From contig JBAJFG010000384.1 of the NCBI GenBank assembly GCA_037903475.1, positions 1,061,001 to 1,125,000 of the forward strand: DNA of 64,000 bases, read 5' to 3'. The position numbers were made by a program, and so were the translations under genes. The notes under the pieces are model-generated. The model saw only the letters and a program-made list of their open reading frames with translations, ran no database searches and was not told the origin of the DNA. Of this stretch, positions 3,643 through 37,830 are shown one piece after another. The stretch's first letter is position 1, and every line of letters starts with the position of its first letter. The DNA comes from Ancylostoma caninum. Lineage: Eukaryota; Nematoda; Chromadorea; Rhabditida; Ancylostomatidae.

Positions 3643-4333
3643 CTGCAAATTAAAACACGGCTCAGAGGAAGCCAATCCTCTGCCAGTTCGAAGTCCTTCA
3701 CGTATAATAGATTTTTGAAACTAGGTCTGTACCACTTTCGTCTCTCGCGCACGAGCCAAGCCTTTCCTGTTACCTTCCTTTCCTATGTACCTGTGGATTC
3801 GCTCTGTGACGAAAACTGAGATAAGAGGAAAAATGAGCCCTCAGAAGCTTGCCTGAATGAAAAACAAGGAATGAAGAATAAACTAGTAAGACATAGTAGA
3901 TGTATTTAATTTGCTGGAACACGAAAAGATTTGCGAACAAGGAAAAGTCTTCATGTGTCGCTTGGAAACAAAGACCTGCCCTACTTCCCATAGGAGTAGC
4001 AAGTTCCTGTAGGGTTAACCTTTTTAGAGCATGGAACAAAAATGGACGAACTTTAGTTACGGCGGATTCGGCCATATTCCCTCTTTGCATCTTCGTGGCT
4101 GTTTTTAGGCGAAGAAAGCGCACTTTGAACAGGAGTGAATTTCTTGTGTTCGCTAAGACATGGCCTTTACATTGGATACGCAAATGTAGGGTTCTCCCGC
4201 ATGTTGTCTCTTTTACAGTATAAATTCACTGCGACAATAGTCATGACGCGCCTTGTACTCACCACAAACTTCAGTTCATCGAAACGAGTAAGTTTATTCG
4301 CAGAGGGTTACTTTAGTCACCGATTATTTACAG

Positions 4334-4432
4334 ATGCAGATCTTGCTCTCTTTTCTCACTCTCCTCAGCGCAGCAACGATGGCAGTGAAGCTCAGCAAAT
4401 GCCGAAACACCGACATGAATTGCGCCGTCTGG
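4334..4432 (+). CDS. Exon 1: signal peptide and first half of ShKT domain
   Basis: The ATG at 4334 follows TTTACAG directly, a good nematode splice acceptor, so spliced-leader trans-splicing just before the start is possible. The exon encodes MQILLSFLTLLSAATMA, a typical signal peptide, then C-x6-C-x2-W (C23, C30, W33), the N-terminal half of an ShKT domain. The donor is TGG|GTAGGT at 4433, phase 0. Reading through the donor gives a stop after about 20 codons without the missing cysteines, which favours splicing. The overlapping longer ORF in another frame (4135-4440) is a shadow. Confidence 0.7.
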
Positions 4433-7400
4433 GTAGGTGATGGTTACACAGCTGTATTTATAAGTAGTCTTATCAAAGAAACTTCTTCATCATGACGTTC
4501 TGAGACGACAAAACGCAGCCTCGACATATTCCTGATAAGAGGCAAGACGAACCACTCCAGGAAAACGTTTCACAATCACGCCTTCCTTTCCTTCGTATGG
4601 TGGGGATTGGCCGGATTTTGATGTGGGTGGAAGGTGGAGGGGTATTTGAAGTCGCTGAATCGCACCCTAACCAATCAAGCATTCGATTCCGGAACAATCA
4701 TCCTGTGTGGATAATCTACAGTTCAAGTCCGCATTTGCGTTTCCGCCTTGCAGCTTTAGCCTGAAACAGAAAATCCCAGCAAATTCTCACTTGGATGCGC
4801 TTTTCAAGTATGTGTGTAGGCATAAACGGTTTTCACATGTACAGCTCACTTCCCGCGAATCATTTGATCACACCACACATATCCGATCGATGCTTCGCGC
4901 CTCCATTTCTGTTCTTATACCTACACTTCAGTGGCGGAAGCAGGGGGGGGCGCCCTCCCCCCCGAGAATGGGTCGGCAAATTTTTGAAATTACATTACAA
5001 TACAAATAAAAATCTTGTATTATGAACTCTACACTGTGTTGAGCCTGACCAGGTTGTCAGTGGATATATTTATTTATTGTTTCGCTTGACGTTTCGACGT
5101 GACCGTCGTCTTGTACGGAACATGTTCAAGACGGCAAGGAAAGTGTGCACTGGCGATGATGAGGGCTACGAATCGCTAAAGTTGGCCTCACAAATAGCGA
5201 GCAGCAATGGGTACTCGGTATTACATCGTTCACATAAACATTCTGTGAACCGTAACCGCAATCAAAATGGAAACAGACTTCCACCTTGTCTACCCTTCAT
5301 TTCAGATGACGTTAGCGCGGCTGTTCAGAAATGCATCTTCCGAGCTCAACTACAGAACGATTTTGTATTGGTGAACATACCTAATGACAATATCAAAAAG
5401 CAGTTAGTTCGGAACAGGCTCTACGATAAACAATGTATACCAGAGCACTGCGTTGTATGCCCGCACGGAAGGGGAGGTGACTGTGCAAAAGTTGGAGTCA
5501 TATACCCAATTGAATGCTTAGATTGCAACGCGCTATGTATTGGGGAGACCAGCAGGACGCTTTCCGTGCGCATTAAGGAGCATTTGGCGAGTAAAGGGTG
5601 TAGAAGTCTAGTGTCGCCGCTTGGTAAGCACAGGAAAGAAGCGCACGGCTGGAATGATTTCGCTGTCAAATGTAAGATCCTGGCACGCGAAGATGAGATA
5701 TCGGCTAGGATAGCGCTTGAAGCCTTCTGGATTACTGTAAAAGAACCAGAAATGAATAGCAAGAATGAGTGTTTATAAATAACAAGTGACTTTCTGCTCT
5801 ACATATCCTTATGTGAGCTGTAGACCGTACACAACATTGAATGTGGACGTGGTGTGTCTCTCACTCGTCTGCAACGGTCACAACAGGTGCGGACTTTCCC
5901 GCAGAAACGGTGGATATAGGGTGGGTCTTTCGCCCTGAGAGTTTTCGAGGTAGTAAGCTGGGGAAAAAGTTGAAACTAGCAGAGTGGAGGGGGAGACGTT
6001 TGGCGGTCTAGAACACAGATAAAAAACTGCGAGCCACTTTTAGGCCCTCGAAGACGACGGTCATGTCGAAACGTTAGGCGAAACAATAAATAAATATATC
6101 CACTAACAACCTGGTCAGGCTCAACACAGTATAGAGTTCATATCGCAGAATGTCCAGGTTCAGAGAAGAAAGGACATAGAGTATAATCTTGTATTAGTTT
6201 AGTTTTAATTGTTTATTTTTATTATTATTTTTAATATAATTTTTATTTATTGTCTATTATTATAATTAATATTTTTATTAATTTTATTTTCCATCTGGGT
6301 CCCCAAAGCTTCGGAGACCCCACTTTTTTCCCACGCCCCCCCCCCGCCCACTTTCTGCGTCCACCACTGCTACACTTCTACTTCGAATTACGAAGAAGCA
6401 CGTGATTCAAATGCAACACCCACTGAAATCCTAGGATCTGCTGCGTAGAAAATTCGGAAATCTGGAACTCTATGCTAAAAGGGGTGTGTCCTGTGTAATC
6501 GCTTGCTTGCGAATCAGAAAAGTGCGTAGGCCACAAACAATCAACCAATCACTTGATGGAGCCCACGAGTATCAAGGTGTTCTCGTTCAGTCGCTCGGAA
6601 AGCAGCGTCTCATTTTCATAGATTTCTCGCGTGTTTCCCGTCATCTCACCATTAAATATGTGTTCTACGTCCTTCAAAACCACTAGAAGATTTCCGCGCT
6701 GTTGTTTTCAAGTGCAAACAAAAATGGCAACCGTTTGATGGGTTGTGTGGAATGAGGACTCAATCTCTCACTCCCAGTACAGTAGTATGTATAGCAGTAG
6801 CGACGGATCTGCGGTTCAGAACAGTATGATCATAAAAATACTTTTTGCGCAGAAGGGGAACAAGCATTCCAGAGTGGAATTCATGGACGAATAACTAGGT
6901 GAATGGAGGTTAACAAACTAACTTTGGTGTTTTGCGTCTTCTGACTTTACATACTCTCTTGGGTAACCACTTAGGGTAGCTATCGTTTCACGAAACGTCG
7001 CCCTTATTACTATTATTACTGGCATCCTTTCTGGGTTTTTCATCCCCACTATCAATAGCAGACCTTCCCGCATTCACATGCATGTTGTATTTAGCTCTGA
7101 GTATTGTGTCGGCTCCTAGTCTACTAGCCTCCTAAACGTCGCACATTTCTCTTGATTGCAACTTAGATCGCATCGAACCGGTCAACATGCGACGAGCCGG
7201 GTCTAGTGATGGAGCACTGTCCGCGAATGTGTCAGGCCTGTGGGGAGAGAGTAGATCCTGGTATGCGCTTCTAGTCTGCTTTCATTGCGATATACATACA
7301 TTGGAGACGAAAGTTGACTTGAATAAGGGTTTTCAAGAGCACATCATAATCACCTTTCTTATTCAGCTTACGATGTGAGGCGGCTGCCCAAGGAACTGAA

Positions 7401-10400
7401 GTCTGTGGCCTGGCTGGTAGGAAGGTAAAATGAGTTGGAGCTAATTTTTCTTTGTTTTAATGTACATTAGTTACATAAGTGAACTAAGATGTGCATTCAA
7501 CCATGGAATTTCGGAGTTTTGTTTGCAGGTGGAGGTCTGAGTTTGGCGGCAAGGCCTTTTTCCCCACTATTCCGAAATTCACTTATGGGGAACAGATAGA
7601 CATCTCGATCAGTGACATCACCAGGAGAGTAAAACCGTCCCTGAACTACACGTGAGTTACTTGGACTTCTAGATTTGTTGACAGCTTGTCGTCCATGTGC
7701 TTCAGTGCTTTTGCGTGGGACATCAGCGTGCCCGAGACTGAGTTGGTCGAGATACACAGCGAAAACGGCTACATAAGTGTGAACCATGACGAGAAGGCAG
7801 ATGTGGACATCATCTCTCTGACGACAGCAATGAGCAATGGTAAAACTTTTTCGCACACTAATGGAATAGTCTGCAAGCTCTGGTAGCTTGTCTGTGGTGG
7901 ACATTTATTCGTGTACGTCTGATGAGCATTTACACCTCCAGCATGAGATGTTTCCACGCCACTCACTCCAGTAGAAAAGTAGATGTCCAAGTGTATGGGG
8001 CATTCAGAAAACAGTGAATGTTGCTGGATCCAGACTGAAAGTGAGTAGTGCGTTTATGCAGTGCGTTCTCAAACACGCTCAATATTGATTCAAAAGACCG
8101 TGTCTCAAAGGCGATTTATACTGTGGTGAGTGCGTCAGACGCACGCATCCATTTGCCAAGGATTTTCCATGAAGACAGATAGACGCAGCATGCACATTCT
8201 CAACCAAAGGATGGAGTGAACGGCGAGGCTGTGAACGCGTAGAGCTGAGCTGTCTCAGCTATTCGACTCGCCCTATCCTTCATCATATGGATACACGCGT
8301 ATCAGACTTAGTAAAAATTGCACTGCATTCAAGATTCATCTACCAGTACTCACTGACTGTTGAATGGATAGTACCCGAGCGCTGCGCTGTGTTCCACCCT
8401 CCCCGGCCTTCACTCATTCACCTTGAGGGTGTTTGGCTTGGGGAGAAGGGTGTTGGGGACAACTTATGTTTACGTTTAGGCTTAGCCTAAGCTCAAACTC
8501 ATGCATAGATTTGTGTCGAGGCTCAGGATAGGGCTTGAGCTTACCAGCCTAGCTCATGGGATGATGCCTACTAACAAACTATCAAATTATAGGGTGCCTT
8601 CCCTACCCCCAGCCCACCTCCGCCTTCCCTACCCCCCCCCCACCCCCGTCTCAACTTCTCTTTCGTGGCATGAGCCCTCTCCGAACACTTAGCTCTTGAG
8701 CGCGCTTTGTCGGAGCCTTGCACTTTGTTGAACTTGCTAGTGAATATCCGAGCATGATTCGCAAAAAGGCCACAGTCATTTTAGCGCTTTATTAATTACC
8801 TAGTATCAAACCTGGCCTATCTCGTTGGAGAAGAAAAGTGAAACACTGGTTTTCTGTGTTGTGTGACACGCTCTTGCACGTGCGGGTAGTAGGTGGCCGA
8901 TAACCGAATGAGCCCCATTTGAAACCGTACTCTGATGTTCATTGACGATACATTTGGCGAGGTTTGTTTGGCAACCTCGAAAACGAGCTTGCCATCTAGC
9001 TAGGCAAACAAAGCCCGCCAAATGTATTGCCAAACAAGAAGCCCCGTAAAATATATCGCCATGCAAACCCCGTCAAATGTATCGCCACGCAAACCTCGCC
9101 AAATGTACCGTCAAACAAAAGGGTTATCAACCGCGCAAAAATTCGACATCATCAGGAATCGTACCATGATATCAATCTTAGGAGTCCGCTGCCTTACCAG
9201 CTGAGCCATCCGGACGACACCGCCGATGGTTGAGTCTCCAGCTAAGAATGAAATGAACGCCTTATCGGAACACCCGTAAAATGTATCGTCATGCAAACCT
9301 TGCCATTTGTATCGCCAAGCAAAGCTAGTCAAATGTATCGCCAACAGATTCTCTTGCCAAATGTATAGCCAAACACCCGTAAAATGTATCGTCAACAGAT
9401 TCTCTTGCCAAATGTATCGTCAAACAGGCTCTTCACTTATTCTCCCGTAAATCATATTGCCAAACAAAATTTTATACCGTAAATCATATCGTCAAACAAA
9501 TTCTCTTGCCAAATGTATCGTCAATGAACATCAGAGTAGAAAGATAGATCAGCCGAGATGTGAGGGATGCGTTAGCACAACGCGGCACGGTCCACGTTGC
9601 CTGCGGATGTGTTGTGATGTGAAGGTTCAGCGACATCGGTACGACCGCAAGGGTGGATGAAGTGAAAGCGCGATCCAAAATTACCGCGCCCTTCGGTTGT
9701 ATTCGTTATCAAGCGATACACATCTGACAAGATCATGGTTCGCCAGTGTTAATTCTTCATGTGACCGCTGAAACAGAGAGTACACCTGATAGGTTGCTGG
9801 AAGGGCAGCCTTTTCATGTTGTGGGGATTAACTCCATACTCCATAAGCGTCCCAGAATCTTTTCCACAATCCCTGGAATGTCTCTTTTCCTTCACTATGC
9901 CCTTAAGTACCTACATAAAAGAACCGGAAAACTTTATTCAACAATTATTGTACCGCATGCAAGCCAATTGAAATTTCCCCTAAAGGAGTCATATTCTTAC
10001 AAGCCGCTTGTGGATCCTTGATGCCTTGTGGCGCAGGCGAATACTGCACCACAAATTTGTCGTTTCTTGGTGCTGCTTTCTGAAAAGATGACGTTACTTC
10101 GCTACTAGTTAGCGAGCAGAGACTCACGAATACCGTTCGTGTGATCTCTATGTTCAGCTTTGCGCCAGCATTCACGAAGCCATAGACGTTTTTGAACCTA
10201 TAATCCTTGTTGTTCGTGCTTTTGATCTTGTAGACAAGATCGGTCATCCCGGTATTAGTCAGCGTGAACTGCACACATCCGCCGTCCGCTTCGAATACCA
10301 CTGAATGAGTCGATCCAACCAAAGCCATACTACCGGTAAATAAATGAGGAACCCCACTGCAGAAAGGGCTTAAATATGCTGCTACTCGTTGATAGCGGGC

Positions 10401-13400
10401 TGTTGGATGACAAACAATCAGTTAGAGTATCCCCAGACTTCTCCAGTTTGAAATGAATTAAAATGAACTGGCTAAAAAACCAACAAAGATGGAAGCGATT
10501 GCGACGTTACATCGTCTTGCATTGCCTCCAAAAGCCACATTTGTGGTGCATCGGAGTTCGATCCGGTCGGACAACAAAGAAGACGTATTGATCTCCGTTA
10601 TCCGGCCAAACGGACCTCATCGCTTCTGGCCGCCTGTTTTTCTCGAGGATGTGCTCAGAATTAACTCGCGATGTGAGTGAGTGGGAAAGATGTTCCGATA
10701 GCCACGCCCCATTAAATATCATCTTTCTTACGTCTGGGGTCTCCTCATTCGCATTATCCATGTGGTGATATGCCATGGGCCTTAAAAGCAGTGTCTCTCG
10801 GGCATGGAGATATCCACAGATTCAAGTGGGCGCTGATTCCAACTATGTGCTTGATGTCAGAAAACACCCTCAAAAACCCCTACTTTTAAAGGCAGCACCC
10901 ACGATAATCTTCACCTTCGAACTTTTGAGAGTTTTCGAACCTCAGGCATTGTCCCGACAATTCTATGATGGAAATGCTGTCAGAAACTCCGCATTTCATG
11001 AGATATCACAAGCATAACATCAGTTCAACAGTTCGAACCTAGCCCGCTAGTACGAGTTGACCTGCTGCGCAGAAATAGCCGTGGGGCGATATTGGAACGA
11101 ATCAGCTGCTCTCATATATAATCGCTCAGCTTTTCTTTGAAATACCATTCTTATGTACACTACTTTGGCTGCAGCTGTCTGTTTGCATTCTAATCTTACT
11201 TTTCACCAGCTGTTTTCCGTTTTCTCTTTTCATAACAACCATTTCTTCCTATTTTGTGTGTTTGTACAATTTCTTTTCGATTCTTTCCCAATTGTACTCG
11301 TTTTTTCTTGACCAGTAAGTCTGTGCAGCCCACACTTCATCTTCTTCTGATTTCTGTTTTTTTCTGACTTGAATATGCTGCAAAACCACGAAAATATCCA
11401 AATCCGTCGAGGAAATACGTGGCGATCAAGTCAGTGTTATCGACTTTTTGCCCTACCCCATGCCTGACAACTCGACCGTTTTGTTCAATCGCAGCAAATT
11501 TAGAGTATCCGAAAATTGTTTTCTTGTGATTTTCAAGTGGAATTGAACCTCTTATTCGTGTTCTTCATGGTCGAAAACCCAAGGTTATCTTGAAATCTTG
11601 GAGTTGAAAATTTCCGTGGGTGCTGCCTTTAAGGCAAAATTGGATACACGAGCGGACGAGTTTCCTCGCTAAGAAGCTAGAAAAAGTGGAGCTAAGAAGT
11701 TGAGATTGCACATTAAAATGAACTTTTCAGCAGCAGCTACTATCAAACAAACAAACACTTTCGTGTTGAAAAACCACACCGTACTCTCAGCCAGCTCTTG
11801 CTGCGTAATGAACGCTCTCGTGCACTGGCCGAGAATTTCGAAATTCTCGGCCAAAGAAACTCGTAACTTACAGGGTTTTCGACGTTTCCACAAAAGTTAA
11901 AGTACATCTTTGTGCTCAGCGGCTCGCGTATGTTCGACTCGGATGGGAATCTAGAATGGGGCTCATGAGCTGAGACACTGCCTTGAAGCTACATTTATAG
12001 TGCTTATTGTTAGCTATAGTGAGCCCGATTCGGTCGGATGATTGAAGATACGTATTGATCCTCGTTATCCGAAGATTGATACGTCTTATTTCTCATTCGA
12101 CCGGATCGGACTCCGATGAACTACTCAGACGAAAATGTCAGGACATGCGGAGGACGATAGTCCATATTTCTTAAGTTTACTGATCATACGGTGACCGCTT
12201 ACTTCGAGACATGCGGAGGACGTAGTCGAGGGGTACGATATAGGCCCGAAAAACAATCGGGACTTGCGGAGGAAGTAGCAGGGGGTGCGACATACCCCCG
12301 AAAACTATAAAAGCCTCGGATACGTGCGGAGGAACTTGATAGGTAATCTCCGATATCACAGAGCAGCGATTTCTGCCTATTTCACCACAGTTTGTAGCCC
12401 CAAACTCCATCTTTCTCCTACAATATCGCTCAACAGGTGTGTTATTGTGTGGCTTAGAGGTGACAAAGTCTCTGAAGGCCTATTCTACAATTTGAGCTCA
12501 CTTCCTATTCATAAAGAAGCTGTTTTAACACCTTATACAGAAAATAGCGCTTGTAACTCTGTATGCCGAGAGATAGAGTCTTAGCGGAAAGATCGTTTTT
12601 GAGATTTTTATAATATTAAACGAGATTTTTATAATAATAGAGAATGTGTGAACTGTAGAAAACAATGGCGACCATGAAAGACCTTAAAACAATTGGTAGT
12701 TCTGTTTTTGAAGGGTTTAAGGCTGAACCAGCACTTTCTTGGGTTGCATGCACAAATTACGGGACATCCCCGGATCCGACTCAAACTTCGGTTGCTGCGT
12801 GGACAGTTTCCCGCTCTCCTTCACTGACCAGGCTACGTATGATCCTTGGCCAGATTACGCATGTGAACTGTAGTTTGGCCAGGAAACGGGTGATGCCTGC
12901 TTAGGTTGCGGGACAGGACTGCCTGGCCAGTATTCGGATAATGCTAGGAAATATCAGTTGCAGCATCTCATAGTTTTCCGTAGTCTGAGGAGGTTCAGAG
13001 CTGCAGCTCATGTCAAGTGGATGTGTTCTTCGGAGTTTTCCTATAACGTCGAAAATACGCAGTTTTGCCATCGAAGAGGATTTTCTCTACATGACATACC
13101 AGTGAAAACTTGCCGCAAGTACCGACCATGGTGAGGGAACACTCCCAGTTAGACTATTGTCCAGTTTCCAAGGCAAAGGCTGTAATATGAAGTGGACAGT
13201 GCCCACGTTGCCAGCATAGTCGTCTCTGCGATTCTCAAAGGTGGGTTCCCATGGGTTTCATGGGACATTACATTGTTTGAGACCATGTTATGTTAATTTT
13301 GTGGACGCCCGGAGTGAGGCCTGAACAGTTTTTGGGTGATGTCCGAACGGTTTCGGGGTGTTGACTAGACAGATCCTGGGTGTTCCTAGCTGCCTGTCAA

Positions 13401-25400: not shown

Positions 25401-28400
25401 ACTAGATACACCTACATGCTCATAGATCCTCTTATATAAATCACGGTAGTGCAACAAAATTTTCTAGAGCGCAGGCGTAGGAGGGATATCACGTGATCGC
25501 ATGATTTAGCCGTGAGGCTCGATTATACAGGGGGGGGGGGCCATAAGTTATTGTACAACGTTTGCTGGCCCATTTCTCCGCAGTAGTAAAATATTTTTTG
25601 CCGCACTAGGCACTGTTTAATAGAGCTGGATTTGCTCTATCTTTTGATCACAAAAACCTCCTGGATACTTCCAAGATAACGAAAAAAGTTTATCGGAAAC
25701 ATTCATTGCAGACTTTCGGTGCCGCAAAATGCACTAACTCTGCCCGCAATTTCCGAGCAAAACAGCCACAAAAACAGTTTGATATTTTTAGAAAGAGCAT
25801 TCTTTGCTCTTTAAGATGCATCTAAGCAGTACACCCCACTTTAGAGATTTGGTGGATTTTTCGTAAAAAATTTCCACATCAACCCGCTTTTTTCAAAAAC
25901 CTGTTCTAAGTCCAACTGCTCCAAAGCAAAACTCTCCCGGGAAACCGGGTTTTAACTGTAAGATACTTTGATCCCTGCTCTATTCGGCAGCGAAAAGAGC
26001 AGGATAATCCATGTGTTGCTGGTGGAGAAATAAATGAGCAAACGTTGTACAATAACTTATGGCCCCCCCCTGTAGACTGTGGCTCGCGAGGATGCGCAGC
26101 TGACGGGGCATTCGGCTGATGTTTCATCATAGGTGCGTAGACGTGGTGGAAGTCGGGTGCATTCGGGATTTCGCGGGGGGACCAGCAGCTAGCGGTCTCG
26201 AGCCCTCCGGGCGAGACAGTGTTTACAACGATTTGACTATGCATAGCAGCAATGCCACGGATCTCCCTCATAAGAGGGATCCCAGCCGGTTAGTCGCGAG
26301 GCTACGTGGCGCGTCCCTAGGTGGCGGATAGGGGGCTAATCGCGGACCACACGCGACCTTGTGCCTGCCCTGAGACGCGGGTGGATTCAGGGGATGGACT
26401 CCCTGTTTCTGCAGTGTCGGAACGATCCATACCTTCTGCCAGCGCGTGGGTGTGTTCATGCATGCGTGCGTGAGTGTACTTGCGTGTCTGCAGATTGTAT
26501 CCTGCACATCTATCCGACCAAAAGCCCTGCATTCAAGTGACTGGGAGGTACAAGGGAGGCGGTTCGGAGTCGCCTCCAACAAATAAGCTCCATCGTCCAC
26601 TCCCGGGAAGCCCGGCTAACTTCCCGGTGAAATCCTACCCTAGCTACCCGCGGGGGAATAGAGCCCAGCAAGCTATCTCCTAAGGGTTTTCTTTTTCTTA
26701 AAGCTCGACACAGCAATAATAAAGAGTGTTCCCCTGATCTCGGAAGAGTCACTGGTACGGCGGCGCCAGTGAGGACGAGGTCCGAGGGGTTATCTAGGCT
26801 GCCTAAAACCAGAAGGACTATGATGACGATCTGTACCTTCAACGCACGCACGCTTGCATCGGAGGCTTCTATCGAGGATTTGATGATGCAGGCCAGGAAG
26901 ATCAGGTACGACGTCATCGGACTGACCGAGACGAGGAGACACCGGCCACTGAACGCCACCTTCGACACTGGAGAAGAACTGTTCCTTGGAACCTGCGACA
27001 GTAGAGGAGTTGGTGGAGTCGGTGTCCTCGTCAACACGAACTTGGCCATGAACATCGATTCGTTCGAACAGCTAACAACCCGAATCGGACGTTTGCGACT
27101 GAGAAAATGTGGATCAATACCGGCCTTGACAATCTTCGTCGCCTATGCTCCAACATCCAGCTACGACGATGAAGAAATCGAGGCCTTCTACATGGACTTG
27201 GAGAAGTTCTACAGGGAAGACCACACTTTCTACAAGGTCATTGTTGGCGACTTCAACGCCAAGATTGGCCCTAGGAGAACGCCTGAGGAACTTCACATCG
27301 GTAACCACGGCCTACAGTGGAACGAACAGGGAGAGAGGCTGTCTGAGTTCATCATGACGACGAAGACCATCCATGGTAACTCACAGTTTCAGAAGCCAAC
27401 CTCCCTACGGTGGACGTGGGAGTCACCCGGTGGAGAGTACCATAATGAAATTGACCACATCATCGTCAATCGAAGGTTCTGCCTGACCGACGTCGGTGTT
27501 GTACCGAAGTTCTACACCGGATCAGACCATCGCCTCCTTCGTGCAAGATTCTTCTTCTCGCGCAAAGGAGAGAAAGCCGCGAAGTTCAAGAAGAGGGCTC
27601 CCAAATCCGTCATCAATTGGGATCTCTTCACTTCGTTAGCCGGCTTTTGGGAAGATGCCGTTGTCGACAACATCGACGAAGAATACGATCGGCTTGTTCA
27701 ACATCTCTGCGACAGCGCAAGGAGAGCCGAGGGCTCAAGATCCACCAAAAGACGACTGTCTTACGAGACCCTCGAGCTGATACGCCAGCGCGGAGTCGCG
27801 AGAGCCGCAGGCAACTACCAACTGACGTCCGAGCTCGCAAAACGGTGCAGAGAAGCGATAAAAGAAGACCTTAAAGAGAGACGAGCAGCAGTATTGGCCG
27901 AAGCCGCAGAGGCAGGAAGAAGCATTCGCAACGCCCGCCGTGACTTCGCCAATCGTAAGACCAAGATGACCGCCCTCCGGCGCCCAGAAGGAACAATTTC
28001 TTCATCAAGACGGGTAATGGAGAAGGTCATCCACGACTTCTACTCGGATCTCTTCGATAGCCACGTCCATCTCCCCCAATATCACCCAAGGGAGGATGGA
28101 TACGTTGTCCCATCAGTTCTCCCTTCCGAAGTCCGACATGCCATCAAGTCGGTGAAGAATCGTACAGCACCGGGCCCCGACAGGATTCGACCGGAACATC
28201 TGAAGAACCTACCGCCAGTTCTTATCACCACCTTGGCTAGGCTCTTCACGCGGTACCTGTCGGAATGCAAGGTACCGAACCAATGGAAGACCAGCAGGAC
28301 CGTGCTGCTGTACAAGAAGGGAGACCCACAGGACATCGGCAATTATCGCCCCATCTGTCTGTTGTCCGTCATCTACAAGCTTTTCACTCGAGAGATTCTA

Positions 28401-31400
28401 AATAGGATCGAAAGGACATTAGATGAAGGACAGCCGTGCGAGCAAGCAGGGTTTCGAAAAGGATTCAGTACGATCGATCACATACACACGGTCACTAGAC
28501 TCATTGAAGTATCGCGAGAGTATAAGATGCCTCTCTGTCTCACGTTCATCGATTTGAAGAAAGCCTTCGACTCTGTGGAGACAGAGGCGGTCCTCAAAGC
28601 CCTGGGCAACCAGGGCATACCTACTCAGTACATCAAGATATTTCGTGAGCTCTACAGCAACTTCACGACCAGGATTTCTCCATTCTACGACGACATCACT
28701 ATCGACGTCAAGAGAGGGGTTCGACAAGGCGACACCGTGTCGCCAAAACTATTCAGCGCCACTCTCGAAGACGTCATGCGAAGACTGGAATGGGATTGCA
28801 TGGGAGTGCAAGTTGATGGCCGGCGACTTAACCACCTTCGCTTCGCTGACGACATCGTCCTTATAACACCAACTATCGGCGAAGCGGGACGGATGCTGGC
28901 CGACTTTGACGACGCGTGTGGAAAGATCGGTCTCCAACTGAACCTGACGAAGACGATGTTCATGAGGAACGGATGGGTCCCGGATGCCCCATTCTTGCTC
29001 AACGGAACGACCATATCCGAATGCTCCAGCTACGTATATCTAGGTCGGGAAGTCAACATGATGAACGATCTCGCTCCAGAGCTGGGCAGGAGGAAGCGAG
29101 CGGCTTGGGGAGCCTACAAGAGCATCGAGGACGTAGTGAAGAAGACGAAGAACACCAGGCTCCGTGCCCACCTCTTCAATACAACGGTTCTCCCTGCTTT
29201 GACGTACGCCTCGGAAACCTGGGCGTTACGCAAGCAGGATGAGAATGCGGTCAACGTCATCGAACGCTCCATCGAGAGGGTGATGCTAGGAATAACCCGC
29301 CTCACACAAGTGAGGGCTGGAATACGGAGTTCCACCCTTCGTGAACAGTCGAAGATCAGGGACGCTGCCGCTTACGCCAAGTTGAGTAAGATCAGGTGGG
29401 CCGGACACGTGATGCGTCTTAACGACCACCGTTGGACAAGAGCCGTCAGCGACTGGACTCCACGGGACGTTAAGCGCACGACAGGAAGACCACCGACCCG
29501 ATGGTCAGACTTCTTCACGAAGTCCTTCAAGGAAAGATATAATGCTCTTCGTGTCCCTCGAACGGACAGAATCCACTGGACAACTCTGGCTCGCGAGAGG
29601 GACAAATGGAAGGATTGCTGGCGCCCGCTCGGTACATCCGAAGATCAACGGGAGTCAAGGTGATCAAGGTGATCAAGCAGCAATGTACGGAGCAGAGTAG
29701 CCCCTCTGATTGAGCTTTGTCCGTAACTGCACTCGATCTTGGAACACTGGACGTGAGTGGAAGCCGTAGCGATAGGATTCACTCGGTTTCCTTATGTAAG
29801 ATGTGCTCTTTGCTCACTTCTCATTATTGAGGTCCCATGGGAATCATGCAGCTTGAGAATCCGTCTGTTTTTAGGAGGGGCAGTACAATCAAATACACAG
29901 GATGAACGAACGAAGAACGCGTCATTATAAGCTGTTATGGCATTTTTTGGAACCAGATGTGCAATTGTGGTGCACTGATGATGGACTGATGTGCCGGAGC
30001 CCCTTAGTTCACAAAAACATCAGGATGGATGTCCACCGATCGAGAAACGGTGGCCCATTAATGAAGAAAACGGCAGGATACGGGTCCATCGATGGAGAAT
30101 GGATCCGCAGGGAGCCCCATATTGGGCAAAGCGCTGGGACACGGGTCCCACCGATGGATTGGGTCTGCCCTGGCCCAATAGTGGGAGGAACGCCAGTATA
30201 GAGATCCATGAATGGAGAATGGATCTTCCCTGGCCCAAAAGTGAGGAAAGCAACTGGATACGGGTGCACGGACAGAGAGTGAGTCCGCATGGTTCTCATT
30301 AGTGGGGAAAATGCCAGGATACGTGTCCATGGATGGAGAATGAGTCCGCATGGTTCCCATTAGTGGGAAAAACGCTAGGTTACGTGTCCACGGATGGAGA
30401 ATGGGTCCGCCGTGGCCCAGTAATGGGGAAAACATCAAGATGCACGTCTACCGGTGGAGTAGGGGCACGCTACGCACTCATTTGTGTCTCAGTCGACCCC
30501 CCCCCCTCTTCTTTCTCCCAGTACATTGGAGCAGAAGCTCATCAGTTGGACTATCGTAAATAGAAGCTTGAACCATTTCAGGTGATTATTCGCACGGCAT
30601 TGGTTACACTGTGTTGTTCACAAGTACTAAAGCCATGTGAAAGATACTCCTGCGCAGAGTTGAAAGTGGCCGCTCATAACAGGTCCATAGGCATGTAAGA
30701 AATGCGACAAAAAAGTAGGTAGTATCATTGCATCGGAAATTAGCTTTACATGTAGGTGCGTGATTAAAAATTTGCAAGGAAGGTTAGGATAGCGAGAAGA
30801 CTCGAAGCCTGACGAGGCGGCCAGGACCGTAGAATGTACGCAACTCATAAGAAGGATTTTGTATTTGAGCTCAGTTAATGATAAGTTCTGCTTATTTGCT
30901 AATTTTCTAAGCATTTCGCACGTATGGTGCTTTTGCACATACAGTCTATTAGCTCACAAAGGGCGCCCGATCCGACTTTGTCCGCAACTACGACTTCACC
31001 ATTTTTCGGCTAACCGATCTATTTTTTTGCACTTTTTTGATATCCATATGTTGTGGTTCCTTCCATTCTTATCTTTCCCCACTGCCATCCGCTAAAATAT
31101 CCTTCCAGACGCATTCTGCAGGCAAAGTCGTAATTGCAGACAATGTCAGATCAGGCGCCATCTGTGAGCTAATAGACCATACCTCAAGTGGCTGCCCCAC
31201 CCCACTTTCTAGCGTCCCGAAGGGGCGCTAGTGGGTGAACAACTAGATACATCTACATGCTCAAGACGAGGTCGATGTCCGCGGGTAAATCTGTCGTATA
31301 TCGATTGAAAGTACTAGTGGCAGATGAATTCGTAGATATGCAGGCAAGATGTATTTAGATGAATTCAAGTCCAAAAAATGCTTTCTGCGGAATTTCTCAA

Positions 31401-34154
31401 TGAGACACCATCACAGAGTTTATACGTTAGAGCTCTCGATCGGTGTTTCGTCGGAAATGCACTTTATCAGTTTGTAAACATACATAGCTCTTCCAAATGT
31501 GCAATTGTTTCACTTCGTGTTGTTTGAAAAAATGTACAGAAAGAAGAGAGATCATTGGCAAGAAAATACATGGTGAGTTTGGCATTCATAGAGAATAAGT
31601 GACATACATTGGACGTCCGGTGGCCCATCCGCGGTCTCAAGAAGGACGCGGCGCAACCGCGCCATAGCCCATGTCTTCTAACCGCATTCCCAGTTGTGCC
31701 GCTTTGGGTCGAAAACTTTGTAAAGTTTTGTAGAGGCGCGTAAACTTTGACGCGCCGCAAGCACGAATAACGTTTAAGTGTGGGTAGGCAAGCCAGAACA
31801 AGCACCATCGCAAACGCAAACACCTTCAACAGGCTGACAAATGGGGGAAAATCACATACGTATTCGGTGAAGTGCTTTGCAAAATCGCCAATATCGATTT
31901 TGCATAGCGCTGTCTCGATCCACGTTTTTTACTGACACTTAACCAGTTATGGGAATGCTGCAAGGACGAGAAAGGAGCGAAAGTTTTGCTGTACAGCCTA
32001 TCTAAAGTTCAACGACGACCACAAGAAAAGCTGAGTACAATAACAGTAAGAATGCCCACGTTCTGTGGACAGAGAAATTGGGATTTATTTGCTTGAACGA
32101 GATCAAAATCCAGAAGCAATCAGAGAAACTTTTGAGAAAATGTTAAAACCGCGCTCTTTATGAGTTGCGTAATGAGAATGCTTAACTCTTTTGCTTATAG
32201 ATGTCCTTATTCAACATGCGTATGTCCATCCTAATGCAATTACCACATTATGAAACAGTCTAATGTTTCATCTTCCTCAGTTCATGCTTCATTCAAACAG
32301 ACACTACAGTGCGTTTGATAAGTATAGACGCACCCCAGAAAGCACTGGTACACAGTTCCACGTAACTTTTTGGAGAAAACCACGAGTGCCAATCGAATGA
32401 GCGTGCTCAAAAACCCTTGTTTCCGTCGTTTCACCCGTTATCGAAAAAATAGTTAGATCCAGCACTTCCCCTTCATAGGGACCGTTTCTTAAGTATAGAT
32501 GCACTTTCAGAAACCGATGATTTCACAGAGGGAACTTCCTTGCAACAGCAGATTTGTAGCTGATAGGTCTCCGCGATTCTCAAGCAACTCAGAAAACATG
32601 GATTGGCATAAATTAACCCATCCCTTTCAGCAAATGGCTATCAAAACGGCTCCTAGTACAGGCAATAGCATTTTCAGGTTTGTTGTGCTGGAAGATGTTC
32701 GGTTCCGGGCATGAATGTCATCTGGTAGGATGCTGCAGGGATGTTCGAAGTTGCTAGTATTAGAAGGCAGATAGTAGCGTCGAATAGGGCTTCTCAAAAT
32801 GCTAATTTGTTGAGCGACTGGTATAGGTCACGCCGGCTTTTTTTTATGGAAAGTGAGGTTTTTCCTTCTGTGTGCTGCAAGAAAATGTAAGAATTGAAAT
32901 TCGATTATGTAGAAATGGAGATAATATCGAGGATGTCGTTATGAGAGGAAACATCTCCAACTTTGGCAGCGCCTACCTCCAAAGGTGCTTGTTTTGAGGG
33001 AGTCTGGCTTTCCTTGTATGTCACCCCAGCGGCGTGCATTCATTATAATACAGTCCAAATAAAGCTTTCCTCATCCTGTAAACTTATTTAAACATAGCAC
33101 GGGCTTTCAAAAGATCCAAAACAACCAACTCGTTTTTTCGACATGCCGATCACCACGTTCCTTCCGGGAAAACAAAGCTGTGAATCTTTTTGGGACGAGA
33201 TTACCCCAGGTATGAGATGAAGTCAACAATGTGCAATGGTGATGCAGCGAATAAATGCCTTTTAAACCCACGCACTGCATGACGAAGCCGAGCAACGGCT
33301 CAGACACCATTAATGCACATCATTTGCTTTGAGTTCAGGCAGGGTATGCGACGCCGTCTTTGATGCGATGTCTTCTTTTGCATACCAAAATTCTTCCTTC
33401 GATTGTAGGACTCGATATTTTATACATATTTGCAGGTGGACCCCGAATAACCTCCTCCCTACCCGGTGATCCTGCGATTTCACCAGCCTACAGCATGTAG
33501 ATCTTTTAGCTGCCCCAGCCTCGCTCCAAAACGTTGTGATCCAAATTGAAGTGCAGATTTACGTTGTAGACGCTTATTAGTTGTTATCAAAACATTGAGC
33601 CCAATTTTTCCCTTGAAGATAACATTTATTTGTATTTTCGCATGGACTGCGTCTATACTTATGAAACAGCACATTTAATAGTGATGTGCCAAATCTATCC
33701 CATATTTTCCATAATCACTAGTGAAACAACGCAATCTTAGGTTTTCTGGCATGCCGAATCGATTGACGTATGTATCTTTTCTCGTGAACCTGTGATGAAC
33801 TGGGTACCGGCATTTTCTAGGGTGTGTCTATACTTATGAAACGCACTGTATTTTGCAGGGTTCATGACTGTCGAGGAAGCAGAGGCCGGTCCCAATCAGC
33901 TCCGCTTCAAGCTCGTTCGCATCGGGAGGATCAGTTTCTCGCATGACTCCGCCGTGAGATTGGTGGGGTCACTTTGGCCTTTGCAGTTCGTGTTGCTCTC
34001 TTCAGAAGTCAAGAGTATTCAGATGTTCCGAGAATGGACACTTCTGGACGAGCAACACTTTGAGTCGCGACTACTCATGACCACCACAGTCACGAGGCGA
34101 CTGATGGAGCACACCTCGGTCATTTATAAGAAGGTTTATCCTGCTGAGTCCTAA
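4334..34154 (+). CDS. Secreted ShKT + nitrobindin (THAP4-type heme-binding) protein, 7 exons
   Basis: Exons read as 4334-4432, 7167-7260, 7367-7424, 7529-7651, 7706-7839, 33859-33962 and 34023-34154. Every junction has GT..AG ends and matching phases (0,1,2,2,1,0), giving 744 nt and 247 residues. Residues 1-17 are a hydrophobic signal peptide. Residues 23-58 carry six cysteines with ShKT spacing (C23, C30, C41, C51, C55, C58). Residues 66-247 match the nitrobindin/THAP4 beta-barrel: GRW at 83-85, PTIP and YGE after it, HSENGY near 145, NGF at 169-171, VEE, and a C-terminal H234 followed by VIYKK. H234 aligns with the proximal heme ligand known in the family. Role by family: extracellular heme or NO-related binding, which is inference. 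Introns 1 (2.7 kb) and 5 (26 kb) are filled with transposons. A transcript would settle the model. Confidence 0.8.
5023..6184 (+). mobile_element. Penelope-like element inserted in a hAT element, with terminal inverted repeats
   Basis: The insert is flanked by a 12-bp direct repeat AATCTTGTATTA (5011-5022 and 6185-6196). This matches the uninterrupted relative at 20.2 kb, where the same site occurs once. Its ends are 88-bp inverted repeats (5023-5110 and 6053-6140, few mismatches), with an extra 44 bases at the right end. Each arm contains TGTCGAAACGTTAGGCG-type sequence; the GAAAC core and the short hairpin before it recall the hammerhead ribozymes described in Penelope-like terminal repeats, but the full core was not matched. 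Confidence 0.8.
5122..5778 (+). CDS. Penelope-like element GIY-YIG endonuclease ORF (RT part absent)
   Basis: The ORF is open from 5077; the first ATG is 5122 (218 codons). The C-terminal half is a Penelope-type GIY-YIG nuclease: CVVCPH..GDC zinc-binding cluster, then GVIYPIECLDC (GIY strand), LCIGETSRTLSVRIKEH (YIG strand with R and H), catalytic Glu in ALEAFW, and a final MNSKNE. Penelope-like elements carry an RT in front of this nuclease; here there is none, so the copy is 5'-truncated or an internally deleted derivative. No stop interrupts the nuclease. It lies in intron 1 of the ShKT-nitrobindin gene, in the same direction. Confidence 0.8.
   Translation: MFKTARKVCTGDDEGYESLKLASQIASSNGYSVLHRSHKHSVNRNRNQNGNRLPPCLPFISDDVSAAVQKCIFRAQLQNDFVLVNIPNDNIKKQLVRNRLYDKQCIPEHCVVCPHGRGGDCAKVGVIYPIECLDCNALCIGETSRTLSVRIKEHLASKGCRSLVSPLGKHRKEAHGWNDFAVKCKILAREDEISARIALEAFWITVKEPEMNSKNECL
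7167..7839 (+). CDS. Exons 2-5: rest of ShKT domain and N-terminal two thirds of nitrobindin domain
   Basis: Exon 2 (7167-7260) follows a pyrimidine-rich tract ending CTTAG and encodes C-x9-C-x3-C-x2-C, the second half of ShKT. Exon 3 (7367-7424, acceptor TTATTCAG, donor GAAG|GTAAAA) encodes the linker ending WLVG. Exon 4 (7529-7651, acceptor TTTGCAG, donor CAC|GTGAGT) encodes RWRSEFGGKAFFPTIPKF and YGEQ, the signature of the nitrobindin barrel entrance. Intron 4 is 54 nt if the TTCAG at 7701-7705 is used; an ACAG at 7684 would leave only 33 nt. Exon 5 (7706-7839) ends at AATG|GTAAAA, phase 1. Third positions are GC-rich compared with the flanks, as expected for coding sequence. Confidence 0.78.
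8470..8500. repeat. Short degenerate telomere-type repeat palindrome
   Basis: TTTAGGCTTAGCCTAAGC-type sequence: TTAGGC (the nematode telomere unit) facing its complement GCCTAA. Only one to two units each way. See the larger tract at 17.9 kb. Confidence 0.4.
8930..9536. mobile_element. TA-flanked MITE built of ~25-bp subrepeats
   Basis: The ends CTCTGATGTTCATTGACGAT (8930) and its inverse ending at 9536 form about 29-bp inverted repeats, flanked by TA (8928-8929, 9537-9538). The terminal motif, AAATGTATCGYCAARCAAA in the other direction, is repeated a dozen or so times inside (9015-9120 and 9275-9530), interrupted by a tRNA-like sequence at 9147-9222. No ORF of interest. The Tc1/mariner type is inferred from the TA duplication. 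Confidence 0.7.
9147..9222 (-). other. tRNA-like sequence (degenerate tRNA or SINE head)
   Basis: The minus strand has a near-perfect A box (TGGCTCAGCTGGTAAGGC, 9208-9191) and a B box GGTACGATTCC (9165-9155). The 5' half resembles a tRNA with anticodon loop CTCCTAA (CCT, Arg). The anticodon and acceptor stems do not pair, so it is a pseudo-tRNA or SINE head rather than a working gene. Confidence 0.5.
9945..10328 (-). CDS. Sperm-specific MSP-domain protein (SSP family), 2 exons
   Basis: Exon 1 is 10328-10134 and exon 2 is 10079-9945, joined across a 54-nt intron (10133-10080, ACG|GTATTC..TTTTCAG|AAA, phase 0). This gives 109 residues, the usual length of nematode SSP proteins, which are short single-MSP-domain proteins of sperm. 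Family marks are FTLTNTG, LVYKIKSTNNKDYRF, GFVNAG, IEITRT before the intron and K.D.FVVQYSPAP after it. The intron keeps frame if read through, but that inserts 18 residues at a conserved site. AATAAA lies within 15 nt of the stop. A TATTTAAG box lies about 45 nt upstream of the ATG. The gene is nested antisense in intron 5 of the ShKT-nitrobindin gene. Expression in male germline is expected from the family. Confidence 0.85.
   Translation of the reverse strand: MALVGSTHSVVFEADGGCVQFTLTNTGMTDLVYKIKSTNNKDYRFKNVYGFVNAGAKLNIEITRTVFVSLCSLTSSEVTSSFQKAAPRNDKFVVQYSPAPQGIKDPQAACKNMTPLGEISIGLHAVQ
10886..11632. mobile_element. TTAA-flanked MITE with AGGCAGCACCCACG ends
   Basis: TTAAAGGCAGCACCCACG (10886-10903) and its exact inverse (11615-11632) bound 747 bp of non-coding DNA. 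The flanking TTAA can be the target duplication of piggyBac-type transposases. A similar end (TTAAAGGCAGTGTC) occurs alone near 22573. Confidence 0.6.
11028..11076 (-). other. Short tRNA-like fragment
   Basis: The minus strand has a GCGCAGCAGGTC-type A box and AGGTTCGAACTG B box about 25 bases apart, too close for an intact tRNA. Probably a SINE head remnant. Confidence 0.25.
12145..12345. repeat. Minisatellite, four ~57-bp units
   Basis: The core A(C/T)RTGCGGAGGA occurs at about 12151, 12210, 12260 and 12321, each followed by a diverged spacer. No coding potential. Confidence 0.55.
12350..13500. other. Intronic sequence without recognised features
   Basis: Part of intron 5. A 79-codon ORF at 12665-12904 has no recognisable motif and no supporting splice or neighbour context. 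Nothing else stands out. Confidence 0.4.
13525..14220 (+). repeat. Interspersed repeat, copy 1 (ACCCGGC..CGGGTGTT start)
   Basis: It begins like the repeat at 36970 (ACCCGGCCTCGTTTGGGTGTT versus the same words there), followed by a matching AAAATG stretch, and contains the ATATTCGTGTTCAGCA word (near 13966) that recurs in the other copy. The class is not certain; the 3' organisation of the better copy suggests a non-LTR or SINE-type family. Confidence 0.4.
14587..15967. repeat. Foldback: ~285-bp inverted arms
   Basis: Arms 14587-14880 and about 15690-15967 are inverse copies: the word ACAAGGGAAGGATACCAAAT, a 90-base nearly exact stretch around ATAATCGAGATCAGCATCG, then a more diverged inner part. 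The loop (about 0.8 kb) holds a tRNA-like sequence. No transposase. Confidence 0.65.
15386..15452 (-). other. tRNA-like sequence (SINE head)
   Basis: Minus-strand A-box-like TGTCACAGTGGTAAGTGTC and B box ACGGGTTCAACTCC. It shares this order and several words with the sequence at 23366-23440, so both probably belong to one tRNA-derived SINE family. Confidence 0.45.
16053..16810. mobile_element. GC-rich TIR element with GGCCGGCC repeats, copy A
   Basis: Ends CAGACACTTGGTGCGGCC (16053) and the inverse of CAAACACTTCATGCGGCC (to 16810). The inside is rich in CCGGCCGG and GATGGTAGAGCGG words and contains a tRNA-like sequence. Composition is sharply different from the AT-rich surroundings. Confidence 0.5.
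16327..16412 (+). other. tRNA-like sequence, Leu(CAA)-like
   Basis: A box GATGGCCGAGTGG (16331), anticodon stem GGGCT/AGCC with loop CTCAAAC (anticodon CAA), a long variable region, and T arm GTTGG-TTCGATT-CCAAT that pairs fully (one wobble). The acceptor stem does not pair, so it is a pseudo-tRNA or SINE head. Confidence 0.45.
16863..17601. mobile_element. GC-rich TIR element with GGCCGGCC repeats, copy B
   Basis: Starts CAGAAACTTGGTGCTAACGG (16863) and ends with the inverse CCAAGTGTCTG at 17601. The right 250 bases mirror the left 150 bases of copy A (ACCAGTAGGTGC, CCCATCACCGGCCGG), so copies A and B together also form an outer inverted pair 16053/17601. Confidence 0.5.
17880..18000. repeat. 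Interstitial degenerate telomere-type repeats
   Basis: Several GCCTAA units (the complement of TTAGGC) in degenerate form, ending in a head-to-head palindrome CCTAAGGCTTAGG near 17978. Poly-C follows at 18008. Confidence 0.55.
18230..19079. mobile_element. TIR element with GGAACTTCCGCGG subrepeats
   Basis: Ends CCCAGACGAACTTTTGGAAC (18230) and the inverse of CCCAGACAAACTTTCGGAAC (to 19079). The word GGAACTTCC(G/A)CGG occurs about eleven times in both orientations, clustered near both ends (18244-18430 and 18985-19065) with an AT-rich middle. No transposase; flanks TT/TT give no clear duplication. Confidence 0.6.
19440..19827 (-). CDS. Second SSP-family MSP-domain protein, 2 exons
   Basis: Exon 1 is 19827-19627 (67 codons) and exon 2 is 19574-19440 (44 codons plus stop). 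A 52-nt intron (19626-19575, ACG|GTATGC..TTTCAG|AAG) sits at the same codon boundary and phase as in the paralogue 9.5 kb away. The start MALA parallels MALV in the paralogue. LVYKIKCNN, GFIGAG and KIEITRT are conserved, and exon 2 keeps APLDSKDPQ, but the last 15 residues diverge (LRPITQIFVNMFAYL instead of MTPLGEISIGLHAVQ). The protein is 111 residues. It could be functional or starting to decay at the C-terminus. The intron length is not a multiple of three, so splicing is required. Confidence 0.75.
20144..20393. mobile_element. Uninterrupted relative of the 4.9-kb hAT MITE
   Basis: The core (from AAATTTTCGAAATTAC through the AT-rich centre to CATCTGGGTCCCCAAAG and the poly-C end) matches the copy at 4929-6369 in the same order and shows the empty Penelope target site. 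The left end is shortened and no matching 8-bp duplication is seen. It lies between the second SSP gene and a Tc1-like element. Confidence 0.75.
20759..21609. mobile_element. Tc1-like TIR element, 851 bp
   Basis: Ends CAGTCACGGCCAAAAAGATA (20759) and its inverse ending at 21609 with TA on both sides (20757-20758, 21610-21611); CAGT next to TA is the Tc1-family form. The minus strand has a 104-codon ORF (21294-20980) without Tc1 transposase motifs that I can see. Probably non-autonomous. Confidence 0.7.
21612..22320. other. Intronic sequence, no feature seen
   Basis: Between the Tc1-like element and the decayed RTE copy. Short ORFs on both strands only; nothing recognised. Confidence 0.4.
23366..23440 (-). 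other. tRNA-like sequence (SINE head)
   Basis: Minus-strand A box GATGGCATAGTGGTAGTG and B box ACGGGTTCGATTC with spacing near that of a tRNA. It lies in the insertion that splits the decayed RTE copy and is related to the sequence at 15386-15452. Confidence 0.5.
23721..23795 (+). other. tRNA-like sequence with perfect T arm
   Basis: A box TAGCGCAGAGGATGTGC (23728) and T arm CAGGG-TTCGAAC-CTCTG, which pairs fully. A 7-bp GC stem (TGCGCGC/GCGCGCA) closes a loop CGTTAAA, but position 33 would be G and the acceptor stem does not pair. Probably a tRNA-derived repeat. Confidence 0.45.
25528..26072. mobile_element. TA-flanked MITE with poly-G ends, 545 bp
   Basis: CAGGGGGGGGGGCCATAAG (25528), with its near-exact inverse ending at 26072, forms inverted repeats of about 45 bp. 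TA lies on both sides. It sits directly before the 5' region of the intact RTE. The core is AT-rich without an ORF. Confidence 0.75.
26075..26819 (+). other. Presumed 5' UTR of the RTE element
   Basis: GC-rich sequence without a long ORF. It shares homology with the decayed copy only over the last ~100 bases (from about 26725), so the older copy is 5'-truncated or its start has diverged. Long ORFs on the opposite strand (26510-27055) overlap the RTE coding start and are shadows. Confidence 0.5.
26820..29663 (+). CDS. RTE-clade non-LTR retrotransposon ORF: endonuclease-reverse transcriptase
   Basis: An uninterrupted 947-codon ORF. The ATG at 26820 (or 26823) is preferred to an upstream in-frame GTG. 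Residues 1-245 are an apurinic-type endonuclease (EEP): FNART (N8), LTETRR (E37), GDFNAKIG (D144, N146), EIDH (D212) and SDH (235-237). Residues about 435-740 are the reverse transcriptase: APGPDRI, NYRP, QAGFRKGFSTIDHI, motif A FIDLKKAFD (576-584), motif B RQGDTVSPKLF and motif C FADD (675-678). The tail has LTYASETWALRKQ and KIRWAGHVMR, as is usual for RTE. All catalytic residues are present, so it may be active. It is a short single-ORF element without a separate ORF1. Confidence 0.93.
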   Translation: MMTICTFNARTLASEASIEDLMMQARKIRYDVIGLTETRRHRPLNATFDTGEELFLGTCDSRGVGGVGVLVNTNLAMNIDSFEQLTTRIGRLRLRKCGSIPALTIFVAYAPTSSYDDEEIEAFYMDLEKFYREDHTFYKVIVGDFNAKIGPRRTPEELHIGNHGLQWNEQGERLSEFIMTTKTIHGNSQFQKPTSLRWTWESPGGEYHNEIDHIIVNRRFCLTDVGVVPKFYTGSDHRLLRARFFFSRKGEKAAKFKKRAPKSVINWDLFTSLAGFWEDAVVDNIDEEYDRLVQHLCDSARRAEGSRSTKRRLSYETLELIRQRGVARAAGNYQLTSELAKRCREAIKEDLKERRAAVLAEAAEAGRSIRNARRDFANRKTKMTALRRPEGTISSSRRVMEKVIHDFYSDLFDSHVHLPQYHPREDGYVVPSVLPSEVRHAIKSVKNRTAPGPDRIRPEHLKNLPPVLITTLARLFTRYLSECKVPNQWKTSRTVLLYKKGDPQDIGNYRPICLLSVIYKLFTREILNRIERTLDEGQPCEQAGFRKGFSTIDHIHTVTRLIEVSREYKMPLCLTFIDLKKAFDSVETEAVLKALGNQGIPTQYIKIFRELYSNFTTRISPFYDDITIDVKRGVRQGDTVSPKLFSATLEDVMRRLEWDCMGVQVDGRRLNHLRFADDIVLITPTIGEAGRMLADFDDACGKIGLQLNLTKTMFMRNGWVPDAPFLLNGTTISECSSYVYLGREVNMMNDLAPELGRRKRAAWGAYKSIEDVVKKTKNTRLRAHLFNTTVLPALTYASETWALRKQDENAVNVIERSIERVMLGITRLTQVRAGIRSSTLREQSKIRDAAAYAKLSKIRWAGHVMRLNDHRWTRAVSDWTPRDVKRTTGRPPTRWSDFFTKSFKERYNALRVPRTDRIHWTTLARERDKWKDCWRPLGTSEDQRESR
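30000..30475. repeat. Minisatellite, about eight ~60-bp units
   Basis: The unit is roughly GTGGGGAAAACGCCAGGATACGG, written here as two words: GTGGGGAAAACGCC then ACGGGTCCATCGATGG; then GGGTCCGCCTGGCCC. Copies are 59-61 bp apart (30082, 30143, 30203, 30262, 30323, 30384, 30444). It starts about 300 bases after the RTE tail. ORFs on both strands here are by-products of the repeat. Confidence 0.8.
30945..31176. repeat. Small foldback element, 232 bp
   Basis: TCTATTAGCTCACAAAGGGC (30945) is inverted at 31176, with similarity for about 55 bases. A loop of about 120 bases. No flank duplication fixed. Confidence 0.55.
31467..31829 (-). CDS. Possible small secreted-protein ORF, unrecognised
   Basis: Starts MKVFAFAMVLVLACLPTL, which looks like a signal peptide, but the remaining 100 residues are low-confidence and have no domain I recognise. 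No splice-supported model. It could be a chance ORF or a first exon. Confidence 0.2.
   Translation of the reverse strand: MKVFAFAMVLVLACLPTLKRYSCLRRVKVYAPLQNFTKFSTQSGTTGNAVRRHGLWRGCAASFLRPRMGHRTSNVCHLFSMNAKLTMYFLANDLSSFCTFFQTTRSETIAHLEELCMFTN
32307..33848 (-). mobile_element. Tc1-like transposon with doubled terminal repeats and decayed transposase
   Basis: Ends CAGTGCGTTTGATAAGTATA (32307) and the inverse of CAGTGCGTTTCATAAGTATA (to 33848), with TA on both sides. A second, similar motif (CGTTTCTTAAGTATAGATGCA near 32483, and its inverse near 33650-33670) lies about 175 bp inward at each end, the IR/DR layout known for Sleeping Beauty-type Tc1 elements. The minus strand near 33070-32930 resembles part of a Tc1 transposase (DE.SF, then a W and R-rich stretch) but has stops and frameshifts. 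It inserted about 10 bp before the exon 6 acceptor of the ShKT-nitrobindin gene. Confidence 0.75.
33859..34154 (+). CDS. Exons 6-7: C-terminal third of nitrobindin domain
   Basis: The acceptor TTTTGCAG ends at 33858. In phase 1 the exon continues NG-FMTVEE, exactly where the family has NG(F/V)..VEEG, then QLRFKLVRIGRISFSHDSAV. A 60-nt intron (33963-34022, TTG|GTGGGG..GTATTCAG|ATG) joins AVRL to MFREWTLLDE, which restores the spacing seen in THAP4-type proteins. Reading through the intron stays open but inserts 20 foreign residues. Exon 7 ends with the MEHTSVIYKKVYP tail, containing the candidate proximal histidine, and TAA at 34152. No clear AATAAA is seen in the next 100 bases. A Tc1-like element ends only about 10 bp before the exon 6 acceptor. 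Confidence 0.78.
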
Positions 34155-36969: not shown

Positions 36970-37830
36970 CGGTGTACCCGGCTTCGCTCGGGTGTTCAAT
37001 TTCTCCCGGCCATTTAAAGCTGATGCTTACATTTGTTGAACCAAAAAATCCCTTCAAAATGTTCATCATTTGGTGATCAGCTCAAGTGACCCTCCTTCAT
37101 TCTGCCCCCCTTCCCTCAAAAAAATGGAGTGAATTTGCTTGACTGGTAAATAAATTCTTATAAAGTACTTGCCTCATCCTCGTTCAGCGTTTCGGAAAGT
37201 CCCAGAAGGCACATTTTCACCGACCCGCGTGCAAGAATGTCGAAAAATCAATATAACAGATAAATCGATATTTCGGTAAAAAGGGTTATCATATCCGTGT
37301 CCAGCGCATTGCGATACCCCGGTAGACATGTATTTACCGCTCAGTGGGCAAGAATAGCGAAAAATCAATAAAATCAATAAATTGATATTTCGCCCAAAAC
37401 GCTTGCCATATCCGTGTTCAGCTTATTGAGCTGCCCCAGTAGACATGTCCTCACCGCGTCCTGGGCAAGAATGGCAGAAAATCAATAGAATCAATAAGTC
37501 GATAATTTGGCGTAAAATAATTGTCATATTCGTGTTCGGCGCATTGAGATACCCCAGTAGGCATGTTCTCGCTAGTCCCTGGTCAAGAACAGCGAAAAAT
37601 CAATAAAATCGATATAATCGATAGGCAAATCGATAATCCCAGGTGCAAAGTAGCCTATAACCTCCGCCAGCCCCCGAAGAACTTACATGCAAAATTTGGT
37701 CCCGATCGGTTCATCCTCCGCAATTTCTATTCCGAACATACAAGCATACAAACAAACAAACAAACAAACAAACAAACAAACACACACACACACACACAAA
37801 CTTTCGCCTTTATATATAGAGATTTTTTGG
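36970..37830 (+). repeat. Interspersed repeat, copy 2, with four ~108-120-bp direct repeats
   Basis: Starts with a small hairpin ACCCGGCTTCGCTCGGGT. From about 37170 to 37620 a unit containing CATATCCGTGTTCAGC, GCATTGAGATACCCC and GGGCAAGAATAGCGAAAAAT is repeated four times. It ends with AATTTGGTCCCGATCGGTTC, a CAAA/CA microsatellite and TTATATATAGAGA, an end seen in many invertebrate non-LTR/SINE families. Confidence 0.6.
37739..37800 (+). repeat. (CAAA)n(CA)n microsatellite
   Basis: About seven CAAA units followed by about nine CA units at the 3' end of the interspersed repeat. Confidence 0.9.

Follow-up and report, generated by a model that had tools for sequence, protein, structure and literature searches.

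A predicted secreted protein joining an ShK-like module to a nitrobindin-type barrel, encoded around a 26-kb transposon-bearing intron in a nematode

The 64,000-nucleotide stretch of nematode DNA analyzed here (hereafter the window) contains, on the + strand between positions 4334 and 34154, what is probably an intact gene for a predicted secreted protein of two modules, an ShK-type module followed by a nitrobindin-type barrel whose most likely ligand is ferric heme, bound through His234. The locus illustrates how a gene can be hidden around some 26 kb of intron bearing transposon sequence.

The gene model is composed of seven exons, all on the + strand, that together span 744 nt including the stop codon and encode a 247-aa protein with no internal stops. 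The six introns (2734, 106, 104, 54, 26,019, and 60 bp in order, with phases 0, 1, 2, 2, 1, and 0) each begin with GT and end with AG, and the claim of the preliminary description that seven exons join in phase is thus borne out. Retention of any one of introns 1 to 5 introduces an in-frame stop, while intron 6 contains none, and GC content at third codon positions is 0.67, compared with 0.32–0.48 in the introns. Exon 1 (4334–4432) opens with the start codon and ends at the donor TGG/GTAGGT, where the slash marks the exon boundary. Immediately 5′ of the ATG lies TTATTTACAG (4324–4333, + strand), which scores 5/6 on a simple consensus, a value reached by 2.9% of the window's AG sites; the TTTACAG abutting the ATG fits a trans-splice acceptor for a spliced leader. 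The model ends in exon 7 (34023–34154) with a TAA stop codon at 34152–34154, and the nearest AATAAA 3′ of it is located at 35804, approximately 1.65 kb downstream. We hold with good confidence that this gene is real and constitutes a single unit.

Membership of the barrel in the nitrobindin/THAP4 heme-binding family is secure by sequence comparison. The joined product of exons 3–7 matches the Pfam family PF08768 (THAP4_heme-bd) with 93.3 bits against a cut-off of 25 (E 2e-26) over profile positions 2–151 of 151, in agreement with the family assignment originally proposed. The match divides into complementary halves that lie on the same strand 26 kb apart. Exons 3 (7367–7424; a linker and then the start of the barrel), 4 (7529–7651), and 5 (7706–7839) cover profile positions 1–69 (57.7 bits, E 1.9e-15), and exons 6 (33859–33962) and 7 cover positions 82–151 with 23.1 bits (E 8.7e-05), slightly below the cut-off of 25. 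As a control for chance, a local HMM built from two sequences, pieces of THAP4 and of the Arabidopsis thaliana nitrobindin, was run against the 2184 stop-to-stop open reading frames (ORFs) of at least 20 aa in all six frames of the window. Exon 4 lies in the top-scoring ORF (22.9 bits) and exons 6–7 in the second (15.0 bits), followed at 7.7 bits by an ORF elsewhere, and the best scores in 20 dinucleotide-shuffled sequences were 4.2–8.4 bits. The earlier impression that no exon stands out alone holds for exon 5, whose ORF scores 5.5 bits and falls inside the range of the shuffles, but not for exon 4, which tops the window, nor for exons 3–5 taken jointly.

The closest solved structures are the C-terminal nitrobindin domain of human THAP4 (3ia8, E 7.8e-15) and the Arabidopsis nitrobindin At1g79260 (2a13, E 1.4e-08; also 3emm). 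The former belongs to the same barrel family, shares 51 of 153 aligned residues, and has its proximal histidine aligned, yet THAP4 is an intracellular protein that bears a THAP zinc finger, whereas here the barrel is preceded by an ShK-like module and a hydrophobic N-terminus. At1g79260 adopts the same barrel, with 47 of 140 residues identical and both His76 and His158 matched, but is a single-domain protein without a signal peptide and lacks loop insertions of 5, 6, and 4 residues found in the nematode protein. A more distant resemblance is to Rv2717c (9q9w, named “peroxynitrite isomerase” in the PDB), which is matched with an E value of 0.00013 over residues 14–94 of the query piece. The sole match in the NCBIfam library is likewise to the peroxynitrite isomerase equivalog model NF045819 (E 8.9e-07), although at 28.8 bits it falls far below the cut-off of 225 bits for this model, which was built for prokaryote annotation. 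No relatives of the barrel were found in prokaryote and virus contig sets, nor was there a match to exon 4 in a plasmid search, as expected in both cases.

The intron that separates the two halves of the barrel (intron 5, 7840–33858, 26,019 bp) is far longer than four of the other five, which measure 54–106 bp, and it is not empty. It carries an uninterrupted LINE ORF of 1010 aa on the + strand (about 26631–29663) with Pfam matches to endonuclease and reverse transcriptase, as well as inverted, diverged pieces matching the same element at ~22.3–25.3 kb, and the uninterrupted ORF appears to mark a recent insertion. Two ORFs with major sperm protein (MSP) domains lie on the opposite strand, at 9948–10421 (E 1.4e-17) and 19615–19899 (E 8.8e-10); short proteins of this kind suggest a nematode. 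The length and content of the intron would also fit a gene that an insertion, a rearrangement, or an assembly join had split between exons 5 and 6, leaving exons 1–5 and 6–7 no longer joined in one transcript and the locus a recent relic. We consider this improbable: both halves are free of frame damage, exon 6 is preceded by a good acceptor (TATTTTGCAG), and the window contains no N at any position. Nor was a second copy of either half, and hence an alternative partner, found in the window by tblastn with the joined protein, the next matches having E values of 0.051 and 0.90. The alignment to human THAP4 (3ia8) crosses the joint between exons 5 and 6 without a gap, and therefore no exon appears to be missing there. 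By eye, the MSP-domain ORF at 9948–10421 resembles a small two-exon gene with an AATAAA 3′ of its stop codon; the ORF adjoining the other (19443–19748) has no Pfam match.

Two histidines are conserved in the barrel. In a three-way alignment with the Arabidopsis nitrobindin and the THAP4 chain, His234, encoded by exon 7, aligns with Arabidopsis His158 and with His153 of the THAP4 chain, which we take to be the proximal heme ligands, and the candidate proximal histidine has thus been kept, as initially suggested. His142, encoded by exon 5, aligns with Arabidopsis His76. Two departures from the known pocket, an isoleucine (Ile141) in place of Met75 of the Arabidopsis protein and one extra residue inserted between the conserved MTTT and His234, could alter the heme site. 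The same two changes would also suit a secreted barrel without heme whose ligand is some other small hydrophobic molecule, and lipids are common ligands of barrels with this overall shape. We judge this reading about as improbable as a split gene, given that the counterparts of both His76 and His158 are present.

Upstream of the barrel, exon 1 encodes a hydrophobic, signal-peptide-like N-terminus and, of the six cysteines in the ShK-like module, the first two, while exon 2 (7167–7260), joined to it in phase 0, encodes the last four. Residues 3–13 form the most hydrophobic 11-mer of the protein, and small-residue cleavage candidates follow residues 12, 13, 14, 15, and 17. All six cysteines of the protein (residues 23, 30, 41, 51, 55, and 58) lie within the ShK-like module in ShK order, with spacings of 6, 10, 9, 3, and 2, and the barrel has none. 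Together with two N-glycosylation motifs, at residues 37 and 123, the hydrophobic N-terminus and this cysteine distribution fit a predicted secreted protein.

The ShK (PF01549) profile is aligned end to end (positions 1–37 of 37) across the joint between exons 1 and 2, though the score of these exons alone, 19.1 bits (E 0.002), stays below the Pfam cut-off of 20.9, as do those of two full-length variants (15.5 bits with E 0.026 for a 244-aa variant, and 15.3 bits). Comparison of the module with solved structures returned no ShK match, just two at chance level (E 1.5). The tail cysteine pattern occurs once in the window and at least once in 5 of 40 shuffles (6 occurrences in total), and is by itself weak evidence for an ShK module. 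Support for the module comes instead from its position, in phase and 106 bp 5′ of exon 3. The fusion of an ShKT domain to a THAP4-type barrel put forward in the preliminary description accordingly stands as regards the barrel, the hydrophobic N-terminus, and the in-phase placement of an ShK-like module, but the ShKT assignment itself rests below the family threshold. The module shares with nematode secreted proteins of the ShKT/SXC kind the six cysteines in ShK order and the full profile span; it differs in its sub-threshold score and in being joined to a barrel of heme-binding type.

The sub-threshold ShK match would fit a reading in which exons 1–2 encode a small secreted ShKT peptide of their own, next to a separate nitrobindin. 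The acceptor of exon 2 (CAACTTAG) is the weakest in the model, with 77% of AG sites in the window scoring as high, and known nitrobindins are described as intracellular, most of them cytosolic. Retention of intron 2 would place an in-frame TAG (7272–7274) right after the ShK-like module and yield an ShK-only peptide, and a second product is therefore possible. As an account of the whole locus, two separate products or genes are nonetheless highly improbable, as exon 2 joins exon 3 in phase across only 106 bp and the barrel without exons 1–2 would be left without a start: no ATG occurs in the frame of exon 3 between the stop at 7324 and the exon, and the first methionine after exon 2 is residue 167, within the barrel.

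For a single two-module protein, the signal peptide would direct the chain into the secretory pathway, where the ShK cysteines would form three disulfides and the cysteine-free barrel would require none. The ShK module may then serve as an extracellular adaptor or stabilizer. Known nitrobindins have been reported to react with NO or to convert peroxynitrite to nitrate, and the heme barrel could carry out either reaction in the extracellular space or the body cavity. More tentatively, and with odds we regard as rather low, the addition of a signal peptide and an ShKT module in front of the barrel may have given nematodes an extracellular nitrobindin, a heme protein that would sense NO and peroxynitrite there or render them harmless; should the species be a parasite, it might act against NO from the host's immune response. 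An association of the nematode with blood had also been suggested, but nothing in the analysis of the window supports blood feeding. If the protein is secreted, chemistry of NO and peroxynitrite would be shifted outside the cell in animals that are unable to synthesize heme, nematodes being heme auxotrophs, and the ShKT module would gain an unusual partner.

Within the gene model, it is uncertain where intron 6 begins. Several donor and acceptor pairs preserve the frame here, as does the unspliced form; nine in-frame pairs retain the core of exon 6, and four of the nine were scored against PF08768 together with one extra intron of 33 nt. Two donors are plausible with the acceptor of exon 7 at 34023 (GTATTCAG), namely 33962, used in the model (93.3 bits), and 33953, an alternative end of exon 6 (89.1 bits). 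Because both score 3/6 on a simple consensus, 33953 may be the donor instead. The other combinations also score below the model: donor 33953 with acceptor 34014 gives 91.5 bits and an acceptor that looks poor by eye, and donor 33962 with acceptor 34014 (88.9 bits) and the 33-nt intron (84.7 bits) give less still. Retention of intron 6 was also rejected, with 79.8 bits for the full protein compared with 87.7 when a 69-bp intron is spliced out.

Elsewhere in the window, 19 distinct ORFs, hand-picked from 259, were scanned against Pfam in two sets of ten that had one ORF in common; four of ten matched in one set and none of ten in the other. In intron 1, an ORF at 5026–5775 (+ strand) matches GIY-YIG with 21.7 bits, slightly below the cut-off of 22.6, and may be Penelope-like. 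A search of the window against Rfam at the gathering threshold returned no matches, and a tRNA search found none. Repeats are present both within and downstream of the gene. A 59-bp tandem repeat of 18.2 copies (62606–63680) creates long open frames of 166–229 aa on the − strand that are probably not genes, and further tandem arrays occupy 37231–37623 (117-bp period) and 45508–45813 (137-bp period). Within intron 5, in a search of the first 40 kb, a 146-nt inverted repeat was found (14587–14732 and 15822–15967) whose arms are 98% complementary and separated by 1089 nt, and the pair is perhaps a small DNA transposon.
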